A DNA stretch of 16,177 bases from positions 1 through 16,177 of the forward strand of contig JAHFDC010000002.1 in assembly GCA_023249205.1 (NCBI GenBank). The letters run 5' to 3'. Source of the stretch: Candidatus Methylomirabilota bacterium (GTDB taxonomy: Bacteria > Methylomirabilota > Methylomirabilia > Methylomirabilales > JACPAU01). A program made the translations under genes and the position numbers. The notes under the pieces were generated by a model, which ran no database searches, had not been told where the DNA came from, and saw only the letters and a program-made list of their open reading frames with translations. Shown here piece after piece: positions 11,738 to 16,059 of this stretch. Positions within the stretch are counted from its first letter, which is position 1. Every line of letters begins with the position of its first letter.

Positions 11738-11884
11738 GACAGGTGGCAAGCGTTTCGGGTTCTCCCCGTGGAATGACGTCGGCGTCCTTCGGCTACTCGC
11801 TCCGCGAGCATGACCCAACAGACGGACACCCGCAGAGGACCTTCGATCCCTGGAGTTCACCCCTTCAATGGGACCGGGCCCCCG

Positions 11885-11894
11885 AAGGAGGTGA
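11885..11894 (+). promoter_or_regulatory. Perfect Shine-Dalgarno in a hairpin loop
   Basis: AAGGAGGTGA is complementary to ten bases at the 16S rRNA 3' end and lies five bases before the ATG at 11900. It decides the start of the 54-residue protein over an in-frame ATG at 11810. Flanking C5 (11879-11883) and G5 (11895-11899) can pair, which would display the site in an 11-base loop. Confidence 0.75.
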
Positions 11895-11899
11895 GGGGG

Positions 11900-12064
11900 A
11901 TGCAGCACGCAAAGGCCCCTACCTGTTTCGCATGCGGCGCGATCCTCATGGGCCCTCGGAAGGACGAGTCGGGATTTCTCGTCTACTTCTGCCCAACCTG
12001 TGAAGCCGCACCGGAGGTTTCCAAGACACGGGGCGCAGTGGAGGTGTTGGAGGAGGCTGCCTGA
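11900..12064 (+). CDS. 54-residue zinc-ribbon protein
   Basis: A 54-residue protein with Cys9-Cys12 ('CFAC') and Cys31-Cys34 ('CPTC') forming a single zinc ribbon, with 'MGPRKDESGFLVYF' between the knuckles and an acidic C-terminal tail ('VEVLEEAA'). The start is fixed by a perfect Shine-Dalgarno. A terminator follows 64 bases after the stop and a TTGACA promoter lies about 160 bases upstream, so it is an independent plus-strand unit between two minus-strand blocks. I do not recognise a named family. The size and single ribbon would fit a regulatory adaptor or nucleic-acid-binding protein, but nothing in the sequence shows which. Confidence 0.75.
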   Translation: MQHAKAPTCFACGAILMGPRKDESGFLVYFCPTCEAAPEVSKTRGAVEVLEEAA

Positions 12065-12249: not shown

Positions 12250-12276
12250 GCCCGCGCAGCCGTTGGGCTGGCGGGC
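12250..12276 (-). terminator. Hairpin downstream of the tRNA, candidate end of the rpoD-tRNA transcript
   Basis: GCCCGC plus CAGCC pair with GGCTG plus GCGGGC around a four-base loop, with one bulged base, 20 bases after the tRNA CCA end. On the minus strand it is followed by TTGCCATTCTC, a weak U-rich stretch. Strong stem, imperfect tail. Confidence 0.45.
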
Positions 12277-12295: not shown

Positions 12296-12371
12296 TGGTG
12301 GGCCCACCTGGGTTCGAACCAGGGCCTGGCCGGTTATGAGCCGGTCGCTCTACCCGTTAAGCTATGGGCCC
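12296..12371 (-). tRNA. tRNA with CAU anticodon (Ile2 or elongator Met)
   Basis: A complete 76-base cloverleaf with encoded CCA. Acceptor stem GGGCCCA/TGGGCCC pairs perfectly, T arm CCTGG-TTCGAAC-CCAGG is perfect, and the D arm is GCTT/GAGC with an eight-base loop. The anticodon loop is CTCATAA, giving CAU. G1-C72 pairing rules out initiator tRNA. The CCGG-CTCATAA-CCGG arm resembles Ile2 tRNAs (lysidine-modified by TilS), but elongator Met is possible. The anticodon stem has an A27-C43 mismatch at its top. Its first ten bases are the last codons and stop codon of rpoD. Confidence 0.92.
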
Positions 12372-14203
12372 CCCGCCGGGGAGGAGGGATCAGAGCCATC
12401 GGCTTGGGCGTCCCCCTCCTCGGCCCCTGCCGACTCCTTTCCAGCCTCCACGAACGATTTGAGCTTCTTGCTGCGGGTCGGATGGCGCAGTTTGCGAAGG
12501 GCCTTGGCCTCGATCTGCCGGATCCGCTCGCGCGTGACGTCGAAGCGCTGGCCGACCTCTTCCAGGGTGTGGTCGCAGCCATCGCCGATGCCGAACCGGA
12601 GGCGGAGGACCTTCTCCTCCCTCGGGGTCAGGCTCTGGAGGACCTCGCGGGTCTGGTCGCCCAGGTTCATCCCGATGACCGCTTCGAGCGGGGAGACGAC
12701 CCCCTTGTCCTCGATGAAGTCGCCCAGGTGGGAGTCCTCCTCCTCCCCGATCGGGGTCTCCAGGGAGATCGGCTCCTGGGCGATCTTCAGCACCTTCCGG
12801 ACCTTGTCCACGGGCAGGTCAATCTTGAGGGCGATCTCCTCCGGGGCGGGCTCCCGCCCCATCTCCTGCACGAGGTGCCGGGAGGCCCGGATGAGCTTGT
12901 TGATGGTCTCGATCATGTGGACCGGGATCCGGATGGTCCGGGCCTGGTCGGCGATGGCCCGGGTGATGGCCTGGCGGATCCACCACGTGGCGTAGGTGGA
13001 GAACTTGTACCCCCGCTGGTACTCGAACTTGTCCACGGCCCGCATGAGCCCGATGTTCCCCTCCTGGATCAGGTCCAGGAACTGGAGGCCCCGGTTCGTG
13101 TACTTCTTGGCGATGCTGATGACCAGGCGGAGATTCGCCTCCACCATCTCCCGCTTCGCCTCGAGCGCCTTCCGCTCCCCGCGCCGGATCGCTTCCAGCA
13201 CCTCTTTGATCTCGGCTGAAGACGCCTCCGCCTCCTGCTCCACCTTCTCGATCTTCTTGGCGGCGGCCTGGATCATCCGCTCGTACTCCTGGAGGCGCTC
13301 CTTGGAGAGCCGGGACCGGCGCATCACGGAGCGCAGGGCGGTGCCGTTGCGGTCCCCCGCCGCGATGAAGGCCGCCATATCGGCCCGGGAAAACTTGCCG
13401 GCCCGCTGGAATTCGCGGACCTCCCGCTCCGCCTTCTCCACCCGCTCCAGGAGGTTCCGCATCCGCGCGACGATCCGGTCAATCACCCGCTGGTGGAGGT
13501 TCAGTTTGCGGAGGAGCGAAGCCTGGGCGTCCCGGCAGACCTTCAGCTCCGTCCTCAGGCGTTCCGCCCGCTTCGCGTTGCCCCGGCTGAGGGCCCGGGC
13601 CCGGAGGACCGCCAGGCTCCCCATCTTGTCGTGCTGCCGCTTGAGGGCCCGAAGGGTGGGGGCCAGATCCTTGACGAGCTCCCGCTCCTTCTGCTCCGAG
13701 GGTTCGTCGAACTCATTCAGGACGACGAGTTCGCCCGCATGCAGCTTTCCCTGGAGGAGCCGCTCGGCGAGGAAGAGCACCTCGCGGACCGCGACCCCGG
13801 ACCGGCAGACCGCCTCCGTCACCTCCTGGCGCCCCTCCTCGATCCGCTTGGCGATGCGGATCTCCCCCTCCCGGGTGAGCAGCGGCGTCTTCCCCATCTC
13901 GCGCAGGTACATCCGGACCGGATCGTCGGTCCGCCCCACGGGGGCGGGAGAGAGGTCGAGTTCCGTCTCCGGGGGCGACTCCGCCCCGGCAGGAGCCTCG
14001 GGGCTCCGCAGCTTCGCCTTCTCGGGAGCGTCCACCACCTCGATGTCCATCTCGTCGAAGAGACCCAGGATCTTGTCAATCTGCTCCGGGGAGGTCACGT
14101 CTTCCGGCAGGTGGGTGTTCATCTCCTCGTAGGTAAGGTAGCCCTTCTTCTTCCCGAGCAGGATAAGTGTCTTCAACTCCTCCGTGCGGCCTGTCTCCTT
14201 CAT
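12362..14203 (-). CDS. rpoD: RNA polymerase primary sigma factor RpoD
   Basis: A 613-residue housekeeping sigma factor. Region 1.1 is at about 6-55 ('[20 protein letters not shown]'), region 1.2 at about 92-125 ('[21 protein letters not shown]'), a long charged non-conserved region at about 126-345, regions 2.1-2.4 at about 345-425 ('[18 protein letters not shown]', '[20 protein letters not shown]'), region 3 at about 429-505 and region 4 at about 518-585 with the -35 reading helix '[20 protein letters not shown]'. After the usual end near 'RSKKLKSF' comes an extra tail of about 29 acidic/Gly/Pro residues. GGAGGAG lies nine bases before the ATG. It follows dnaG, a classic macromolecular-synthesis arrangement. 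The stop codon lies within the downstream tRNA gene. Confidence 0.97.
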
Positions 14204-14294: not shown

Positions 14295-14323
14295 AATATA
14301 GGCCAGCGGCTAAGAACTAGCCA
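14295..14323 (-). promoter_or_regulatory. Possible rpoD promoter at the end of dnaG
   Basis: TGGCTA (14318-14323), 17-base spacer, TATATT (14295-14300), the only clearly A/T-rich block in the 113-base dnaG-rpoD gap. The -10 matches five of six bases, the -35 only three. It would give rpoD its own promoter beside read-through from dnaG. Confidence 0.35.
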
Positions 14324-16059
14324 CCGCGCCTGGCACGTTCCTGGTACTCCGCGAGAAGGCGGGATTCCGCCTCCCGGTCGCCGCGCCGGCCAGCCTCGGC
14401 GATCCGTTGCTGTAACTCCTTGAGTCGAGGCCGCTCGCTCCGTTGCCGGAGCCGACCCAGGCAGTCCTGGAGCATCCTCCCCGGCTCGGGGAAACCCTCC
14501 GGATCCGCCACCAGGAGTTCCGAGGCAAGCCGCTGAACCTCCTCCCGGGGATGATGCGCCAGGGCCCGGGCGAGCCGAGCCTCTTCCCTCCCCTCCGGGC
14601 CGGCCAGCACGTCCAGGAACGCGCGGGTGACTTCCCCAACCGCGGGCCCGGCCTCCCGAACGTGCTCGCGCAGGACCGGGAAGAGGAGGAGCAGTTGCAG
14701 GAGGAGCCTCTCCTCCGGCGGCACGGACGGGCCCAGCGGAGGTTCGGGGGAGGCCTCCGCCCGGGGCTGCCGGGTCTGGCTGAGCCGCTTGATGTCGGCC
14801 AGCACCGCCTGCTCTGACACCCCCAGCCGCTCAGCCAGCTTCTGGACGTACCGGGTCTTGCGGATCCCCTCCGGCAGGCGGGCCACGACCGCGAGGATCC
14901 GGTCGGCCGCCCGGGCTGCCTCCTCCACCCCCTCGCGCGGCGTTCCCTGCCCGAGAACGAAGTCCACCAGATCCTGCGCGTGGTGCAGGAGCGCCCGGAA
15001 GGCCTCCGCCCCCTCCTTCCGGATGAAGGTGTCCGGGTCGGTCCCCTCGGGGAGAACCACCACGGAGGCATCCAGTCCCACTTCCAGTACCAGGTCGAGC
15101 GCCCGCCACGCCGCCTCACGTCCCGCCCGATCCGGATCGAAGACCAGGGTCACCTGCTCCGCGTAGCGGCGGAGGAGCAGCACCTGCTCGCGGGTCAGCG
15201 CGGTCCCAAGCACGGCCACCGCCTCGGCGACCCCCCCCTGGTGCAGCGCAATGCAGTCGAAGTACCCCTCCACGACGATCGCGCGGCGCCTCTCCCTCAG
15301 GCTCGGCGCCGCCACCGGAAGCCCGAAGAGCTGGTGGCCCTTCCGGTAGATCGGAGTCTCGGGGGAGTTCATGTACTTCGGCTCCTGGTCCCCGAGCGCC
15401 CTCCCTCCGAAGCCCAGCACCTTCCCCGCGGGATCCTGGATGGGGATCATCAGGCGGTCCCGGAACCGGTCGTAGTGCCCCTTTCGCTCCTGCCGCTCGA
15501 CGACCAGGCCCCCCGCCTCCATGAGGCGGGGGGGGAAGCCGCGCTGCGTGAGAAACCGGACGAGACCCTCCCAGGCGCCGGGCGCGTAGCCGAGCAGAAA
15601 CCGCTCTACCGTTTCGGAGAGGATCCCCCGGGCAGCCAGAGCGGCCCGCGCCCCCTCCCCTTCCGTCCCCCGGAGGCTCTGCCGGAAGTACTCACAGGCG
15701 GCCCGCTGGATGTCGTACAGGCGCAGGCGGCCCTCCCCCTCCTCCCGCCCCCCGCCGCGCCGCCGCGGGAGCGGGATCCCCGCCCGCTGTGCCAGGAACT
15801 CGATCGCCTCCGGGAAAGCGAAGCCCTCCTTCAGCATCAGGAAGGACGCGGCATCGCCTCCCTTGTGGCACCCGAAGCAGTGGAAGATCTGGCGGTCGGG
15901 GTTGACCGTGAAGGACGGGGTCTTCTCGTTGTGGAAGGGGCAGAGAGCCTTGAAGGAGCGGCCCGCCTTGCGCAGCGGGAGGTAGCCCCCAATGAGGTCC
16001 ACGATGTCGGTGCTGCTCAGGACGGACGCGACCACCTCGCCCGGGATCAGACCGGCCAT
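14317..16059 (-). CDS. dnaG: DNA primase DnaG
   Basis: A 580-residue primase that makes RNA primers at the replication fork. The CHC2 zinc domain is at about 1-100, with Cys40, His43, Cys61 and Cys64 in 'CPFHNEKTPSF' and 'FHCFGCHKGGD'. The catalytic core follows ('YDRFRDRLMIPIQD', 'GFGGRAL', 'PKYMNSPETPIYRKG'), and the Toprim motifs are Glu264 in 'VVEGYFDCI' and Asp308/Asp310 in 'VFDPDRAGREA'. The C-terminal part (about 445-580) is a helical helicase-interaction region of low conservation. The length is normal. It starts 30 bases after the mutS2 stop and precedes rpoD, consistent with one operon. Confidence 0.97.
   Translation of the reverse strand: MAGLIPGEVVASVLSSTDIVDLIGGYLPLRKAGRSFKALCPFHNEKTPSFTVNPDRQIFHCFGCHKGGDAASFLMLKEGFAFPEAIEFLAQRAGIPLPRRRGGGREEGEGRLRLYDIQRAACEYFRQSLRGTEGEGARAALAARGILSETVERFLLGYAPGAWEGLVRFLTQRGFPPRLMEAGGLVVERQERKGHYDRFRDRLMIPIQDPAGKVLGFGGRALGDQEPKYMNSPETPIYRKGHQLFGLPVAAPSLRERRRAIVVEGYFDCIALHQGGVAEAVAVLGTALTREQVLLLRRYAEQVTLVFDPDRAGREAAWRALDLVLEVGLDASVVVLPEGTDPDTFIRKEGAEAFRALLHHAQDLVDFVLGQGTPREGVEEAARAADRILAVVARLPEGIRKTRYVQKLAERLGVSEQAVLADIKRLSQTRQPRAEASPEPPLGPSVPPEERLLLQLLLLFPVLREHVREAGPAVGEVTRAFLDVLAGPEGREEARLARALAHHPREEVQRLASELLVADPEGFPEPGRMLQDCLGRLRQRSERPRLKELQQRIAEAGRRGDREAESRLLAEYQERARRGG

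Follow-up and report, generated by a model that had tools for sequence, protein, structure and literature searches.

In a Candidatus Methylomirabilota bacterium the gene for the primary sigma factor, rpoD, extends into a tRNA gene on the same strand, with the result that ten bases belong to both genes and the rpoD stop codon is located inside the tRNA. The gene pair lies in a 16,177-nucleotide stretch of DNA, referred to here as the window, on a contig (C261) of a genome (G000) that comprises 278 contigs and is 64% complete. We propose, with confidence only a little better than even, that an old rpoD/tRNA-Ile2 pair has drifted into an overlap that the cell tolerates, the tRNA being cut from shared transcripts, and that this represents an accident and not an evolved switch.

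Anatomy and identity of the overlapping genes

The features of the window are listed in Table 1. Both the RpoD equivalog score and the C-terminal domain identify the window RpoD as a full-length primary sigma factor; the ORF scored 733.2 bits against the NCBIfam RpoD profile PRK05658, for which the cut-off is 555, and was also above the cut-off for TIGR02393 (398.3 bits). The tRNA was delimited, and its CAU anticodon assigned, by ARAGORN, and Rfam RF00005 matched positions 12299-12371 with 64.5 bits. The last codons of rpoD are CCG GCG GGG GGC CCA TAG, in which the third base of GGG, at 12371, is G1 of the tRNA, and the TAG stop is T8-A9-G10; the window rpoD is, then, a same-strand ORF whose stop lies inside an intact downstream tRNA. 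The original prediction had reported these ten shared bases and their positions, with the tRNA 5' end on the third base of the Gly codon that precedes the final Gly-Pro-stop, and this anatomy was borne out by the ORF, by ARAGORN and by base-by-base reading. A chance ORF or a misplaced tRNA end was dropped as an explanation on the strength of the RpoD profile score and of the tRNA ends given by ARAGORN and Rfam. It should be stressed that a TAG is present at about bases 8-10 in all 106 of the rpoD-linked tRNAs compared (see below), and thus any frame entering such a tRNA in the right phase will stop there anyway, so that the position of the stop is no coincidence. The unusual feature is that rpoD reaches the TAG of the tRNA, not the TAG itself.

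Table 1. Positions of the overlapping genes and of neighbouring features in the window
Feature	Position	Strand	Basis
rpoD, encoding the primary sigma factor (613 aa; C-terminal tail extended)	12362..14203	-	ORF; NCBIfam RpoD, 733.2 bits
tRNA with anticodon CAU and an encoded CCA end, interpreted as tRNA-Ile2 (lysidine)	12296..12371	-	ARAGORN; Rfam; comparison with ileX
Ten bases shared by both genes: the last base of GGG plus GGC CCA TAG, equal to tRNA bases 1-10	12362..12371	-	
18-nt segment, coding in the window but spacer in the genus relatives	12372..12389	-	Same-genus comparison
Remnant of the relatives' TGA stop, out of frame in the window; one C missing just upstream	12390..12392	-	Alignment with three same-genus species
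dnaG, upstream neighbour (order dnaG-rpoD-tRNA)	14317..16059	-	NCBIfam TIGR01391
GC-rich hairpin downstream of the tRNA, where transcripts may end	12250..12276	-	RNA fold; without a T run; at the edge of the folded stretch

The most fitting identity for the tRNA is tRNA-Ile2, in which lysidine at position 34 would permit the decoding of AUA. This reading is based on its closeness to Escherichia coli ileX (55 identical bases, against 49 with both metT and metU), on its linkage to rpoD, as in E. coli, and on the presence of TilS, which scored above the cut-off in all ten genomes tested, that of the window included. Similarly, among the 106 rpoD-linked tRNAs 103 are closer to ileX, two to metT and one is tied. 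An initiator tRNA was rejected, that being another gene (L019), and an elongator tRNA-Met was rejected because the window tRNA is closer to ileX than to metT or metU; the E. coli genes served in this comparison, no elongator tRNA-Met of the window's own genome being found among the 30 tRNAs read of 31 matches. The window tRNA has one match in its own genome and in each of three genomes of the same genus (G015, G016 and G017). Little tRNA-Ile2 should be needed, as AUA accounts for three of the 4076 codons in the 12 window ORFs taken as genes.

Two further features were noted in this genome. A small ORF at 11810-12064 of the window (+ strand; 84 aa) displays a zinc-ribbon-like pattern, CFACG...CPTC, had no NCBIfam match and is followed by a terminator-like hairpin. 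On contig C38 (L014), a tRNA-Trp gene begins 9 nt downstream of a TAG which, by eye, seems to end a short ORF, perhaps representing a tight mRNA-tRNA pair.

Transcription of the tRNA

Co-transcription of rpoD and the tRNA in the genus of the window (f1) is plausible and appears, from the sequences upstream of the tRNA, to be the likeliest route by which the tRNA is made. In the 200 nt that precede the tRNA in the four species of this genus, a scan that recognizes sigma-70-like boxes only found no hexamer with four of six matches to TATAAT (A2 and T6 among them). The absence of a -10-like box is weak evidence, as 21 of the 30 tRNA genes read from the window's genome, the rpoD-linked tRNA included, likewise lack a TANNNT in the 60 nt upstream, although some of these lie behind other tRNAs; the motif is present in the remaining nine.

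It may be argued, instead, that there is no conflict between the two genes, the tRNA being expressed from its own promoter inside rpoD such that RNase P rarely meets the rpoD message. We consider this rather unlikely for the window, but it is what the data suggest for a large sister family, f7, which we take to be Rokubacteriales. In that family a TATGAT-type hexamer starts 12-16 nt before the tRNA in 25 of 44 loci, against 0.17 expected from dinucleotide shuffles, a count that is descriptive because the test was set after the motif had been seen by eye, the loci were allotted to families by hand and the genomes are related. In 13 of the 25 loci the box is preceded, one base before, by TG, as in extended -10 promoters, and in some it adjoins the rpoD stop codon or shares its TG (TGATATGAT). 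Examples with a TATGAT or TATCAT box close to the rpoD stop are L177, L148 and L176 (the family spans L147-L190). It is as if the f7 tRNA had its own promoter abutting the end of rpoD, and this promoter-like box beside a stop codon is directly testable. An own promoter for the window tRNA would also be in keeping with the many tRNA genes of its genome that have no obvious box, and with the promoter described for E. coli ileX (PMC7876045). Against it stand the lack of any four-of-six hexamer in the 200 nt scanned in the window genus, and the f7-type box, which is found at the same place in none of the four members of that genus. At that position the box was also absent from f2 (0/6), f3 (0/6), f6 (0/14), f8 (0/1), f10 (0/1) and L062 (0/1), and occurred in three of 29 other loci, where 0.62 were expected.

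In families other than f7, comparison of the spacer promoter scan with shuffled sequences gave values of 0.02 or less only for L042, L043 and L046 (f2) and L145 (f8), and none below 0.05 among six f3 loci, 14 f6 loci and ten short-gap loci of other phyla. L042, L043 and L046 carry a TATACT box 40 nt upstream of the tRNA, and downstream of this box their leader contains a GC-rich inverted repeat. The rpoD-tRNA spacers of L037, L038, L040, L045, L048-L050 and L191 contain numerous short repeats of the type GTTCACGGTTCAC / GAACCATGAACC.

Age of the gene pair and origin of the overlap

The pairing of rpoD with a CAU tRNA is old, is widespread across several phyla and is often tightly spaced. A search of the phylum, which took in 95 genomes, showed that in 28 of 30 loci rpoD is followed, within 300 nt and on the same strand, by a CAU tRNA, the exceptions being L039, in which no tRNA was found, and L041, which was short of sequence. 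The same arrangement was evident in 30 of 80 loci from named genomes among the matches listed, which include Nitrospirae, Acidobacteria, Myxococcota and delta- and gammaproteobacteria; some of these loci end at contig ends, and L047 and L062 apparently represent one contig. Another 50 stretches were selected because a window-type tRNA had matched there, and 48 of them gave a usable pair. Over the resulting 106 pairs the gap between the genes is 0 nt or less in two, 1-20 nt in 37, 21-60 nt in 24 and more than 60 nt in 43. The two gapless pairs are that of the window (-10) and one in a deltaproteobacterial metagenome-assembled genome (L076, MGSU01000036.1; -1), a lineage unrelated to that of the window, in which the G of the rpoD stop TAG is base 1 of the tRNA.

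The overlap itself, in contrast with the pairing, appears not to be conserved and, from these comparisons, seems to be a recent accident of a single lineage. In all three genomes of the same genus rpoD ends in a TGA, and 18 nt separate this stop from the same tRNA. The original prediction named relatives with this tRNA far from rpoD, and without overlap, as the outcome that would speak against it; the overlap is indeed missing from the relatives, yet their tRNA is close to rpoD, not far away. Alignment with the three genomes shows that a single C is absent from the window just before the old stop, CTCCTGA in the relatives being CT-CTGA here. The loss of one base places the old TGA out of frame and adds nine further rpoD codons, which lead to T8-A9-G10 of the tRNA. 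This suggests that the overlap arose through the absence of a single base, T8-A9-G10 of the tRNA serving as a catch stop, and the window would therewith illustrate how such an overlap originates. On a contig binned in a class-level relative (L188; G081:C241), a TGA, by eye, likewise lies 18 nt before the tRNA, while the end motif of rpoD is off the contig; that tRNA is 96% identical to the window's and its 18-nt spacer is of the genus type, and the contig is perhaps misbinned.

The RpoD proteins nearest to that of the window bear the names candidate division NC10 and Candidatus Methylomirabilis. Twelve of them were read, of which ten have an acidic tail of the genus type and only one, the metagenomic protein P0001 (JGI data), has a tail of the window type. 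P0001 is 97% identical to the window RpoD, also comprises 613 aa and ends in GSDPSSRSAGP. The terminal GP is what GGC CCA TAG of the tRNA would give, and an overlap with the tRNA is thus implied in P0001 from the length and tail of a sequence compared as protein. The last residues of the two proteins differ. The overlap seems to have outlived some divergence between the window and P0001, so that a benefit is conceivable, which tells against a mere accident. The remaining protein, P0010, is 90% identical and has a C-terminal end unlike the genus type; its contig is perhaps chimeric.

If RNase P cuts before 12371, the rpoD mRNA would break off after the first two bases of a Gly codon. The claim of the original prediction that cleavage strips rpoD of its stop codon is right in that no stop would be left after the cut, but it applies only if rpoD and the tRNA share a transcript. 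In the reading that we favour, the tRNA of the window lineage would have no promoter of its own, and RNase P would release it from transcripts shared with rpoD. On those transcripts that remain uncut, ribosomes would complete RpoD; the cut transcripts would provide the tRNA together with a non-stop rpoD fragment, the ribosomes on which would be rescued by tmRNA/SmpB. The overlap would be tolerated, the added RpoD tail being probably dispensable and little tRNA-Ile2 being needed. Both tmRNA and SmpB were above the cut-off in G016 and G017, which are 95% and 96% complete, and in six other near-complete genomes, while tmRNA (above cut-off) and SmpB were not found in the window's genome or in G015, which are only 64% and 63% complete. 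Where the gap is 1-20 nt, as in 37 pairs, such a cut would leave the stop plus a short tail, and the window thus represents the extreme of a common tight arrangement. The minimum-energy fold of a 181-nt precursor, in which the acceptor and T arms are kept but the full cloverleaf is not, was given no weight.

The original prediction went further, and proposed that sigma-factor output could be coupled to tRNA maturation. In such a scheme a single transcript would serve either for the synthesis of RpoD or for the maturation of tRNA-Ile2, and the output of the sigma factor would be set by the activity of RNase P or by ribosome traffic. The geometry of the overlap does force this alternative on any shared transcript, and the lack of a visible tRNA promoter in the window genus, the one match to the tRNA in each genus genome, the overlap implied in P0001 and the -1 overlap in the unrelated L076 can all be cited in favour of regulation. 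The overlap is absent, however, from the three same-genus genomes and from 104 of the 106 pairs, and the window type of tail is seen in one of the 12 near proteins read. The apparent own promoter of the f7 tRNA likewise speaks against a regulatory meaning. No sign of selection on the overlap was apparent: one missing base accounts for it, it is rare in the 106-pair sample, and the tail differs in its last residues between the window and P0001. We therefore regard regulatory coupling as improbable. Similarly doubtful is the broader proposal that in at least two unrelated lineages, those of the window and L076, the stop of rpoD has shifted onto or into the tRNA and each shared transcript gives either a complete rpoD message or the tRNA, with RpoD made from cut messages being tagged by tmRNA and destroyed; if true, it would tie the supply of the sigma factor to RNase P and ribosome traffic. 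Finally, the missing C may be unreal, an assembly or sequencing error in a fragmented, incomplete genome where a single base decides the frame, in which case rpoD would, as in the relatives, stop at a distance of 18 nt from the tRNA, but this is very improbable because P0001, a different sequence albeit seen as protein only, matches the window RpoD in length and has a similar tail that ends in GP.

Comparison with known systems

A close counterpart is found in E. coli K-12, in which the tRNA-Ile(CAU) gene ileX is likewise downstream of rpoD on the same strand. The order there is, however, dnaG, rpoD, mug (on the other strand) and ileX, such that mug intervenes. Maturation of a tRNA out of a combined mRNA-tRNA transcript has a parallel in the mixed transcripts, secG-leuU among them, that Mohanty and Kushner reportedly described in 2008; to our knowledge secG-leuU involves no overlap between stop codon and tRNA, unlike the window. 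Among the matches listed from the open-licence literature, no title or abstract described an overlap between rpoD and a tRNA.

The window carries an ORF/tRNA overlap of the type described by Mukai 2021 (PMC8124441), with another gene pair. In that paper, genes for tRNA-Sec (selC) are nested in, or partly overlapped by, selB, the stop codon lying inside the tRNA in Dyella/Luteibacter (gammaproteobacteria) and in a Nitrospirae lineage, and it is hypothesized that processing of the tRNA produces a non-stop selB mRNA, which makes the two products alternative. The systems are alike in that the ORF, there of a translation factor, runs into a same-strand tRNA and in that close relatives have the stop before the tRNA. 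They differ in that the selB overlap often covers the whole tRNA and occurs in diverse Alphaproteobacteria, whereas the overlap described here comprises ten bases, in one lineage. A primary sigma factor and a tRNA-Ile2 gene thereby join the few bacterial ORF/tRNA overlaps found in print.
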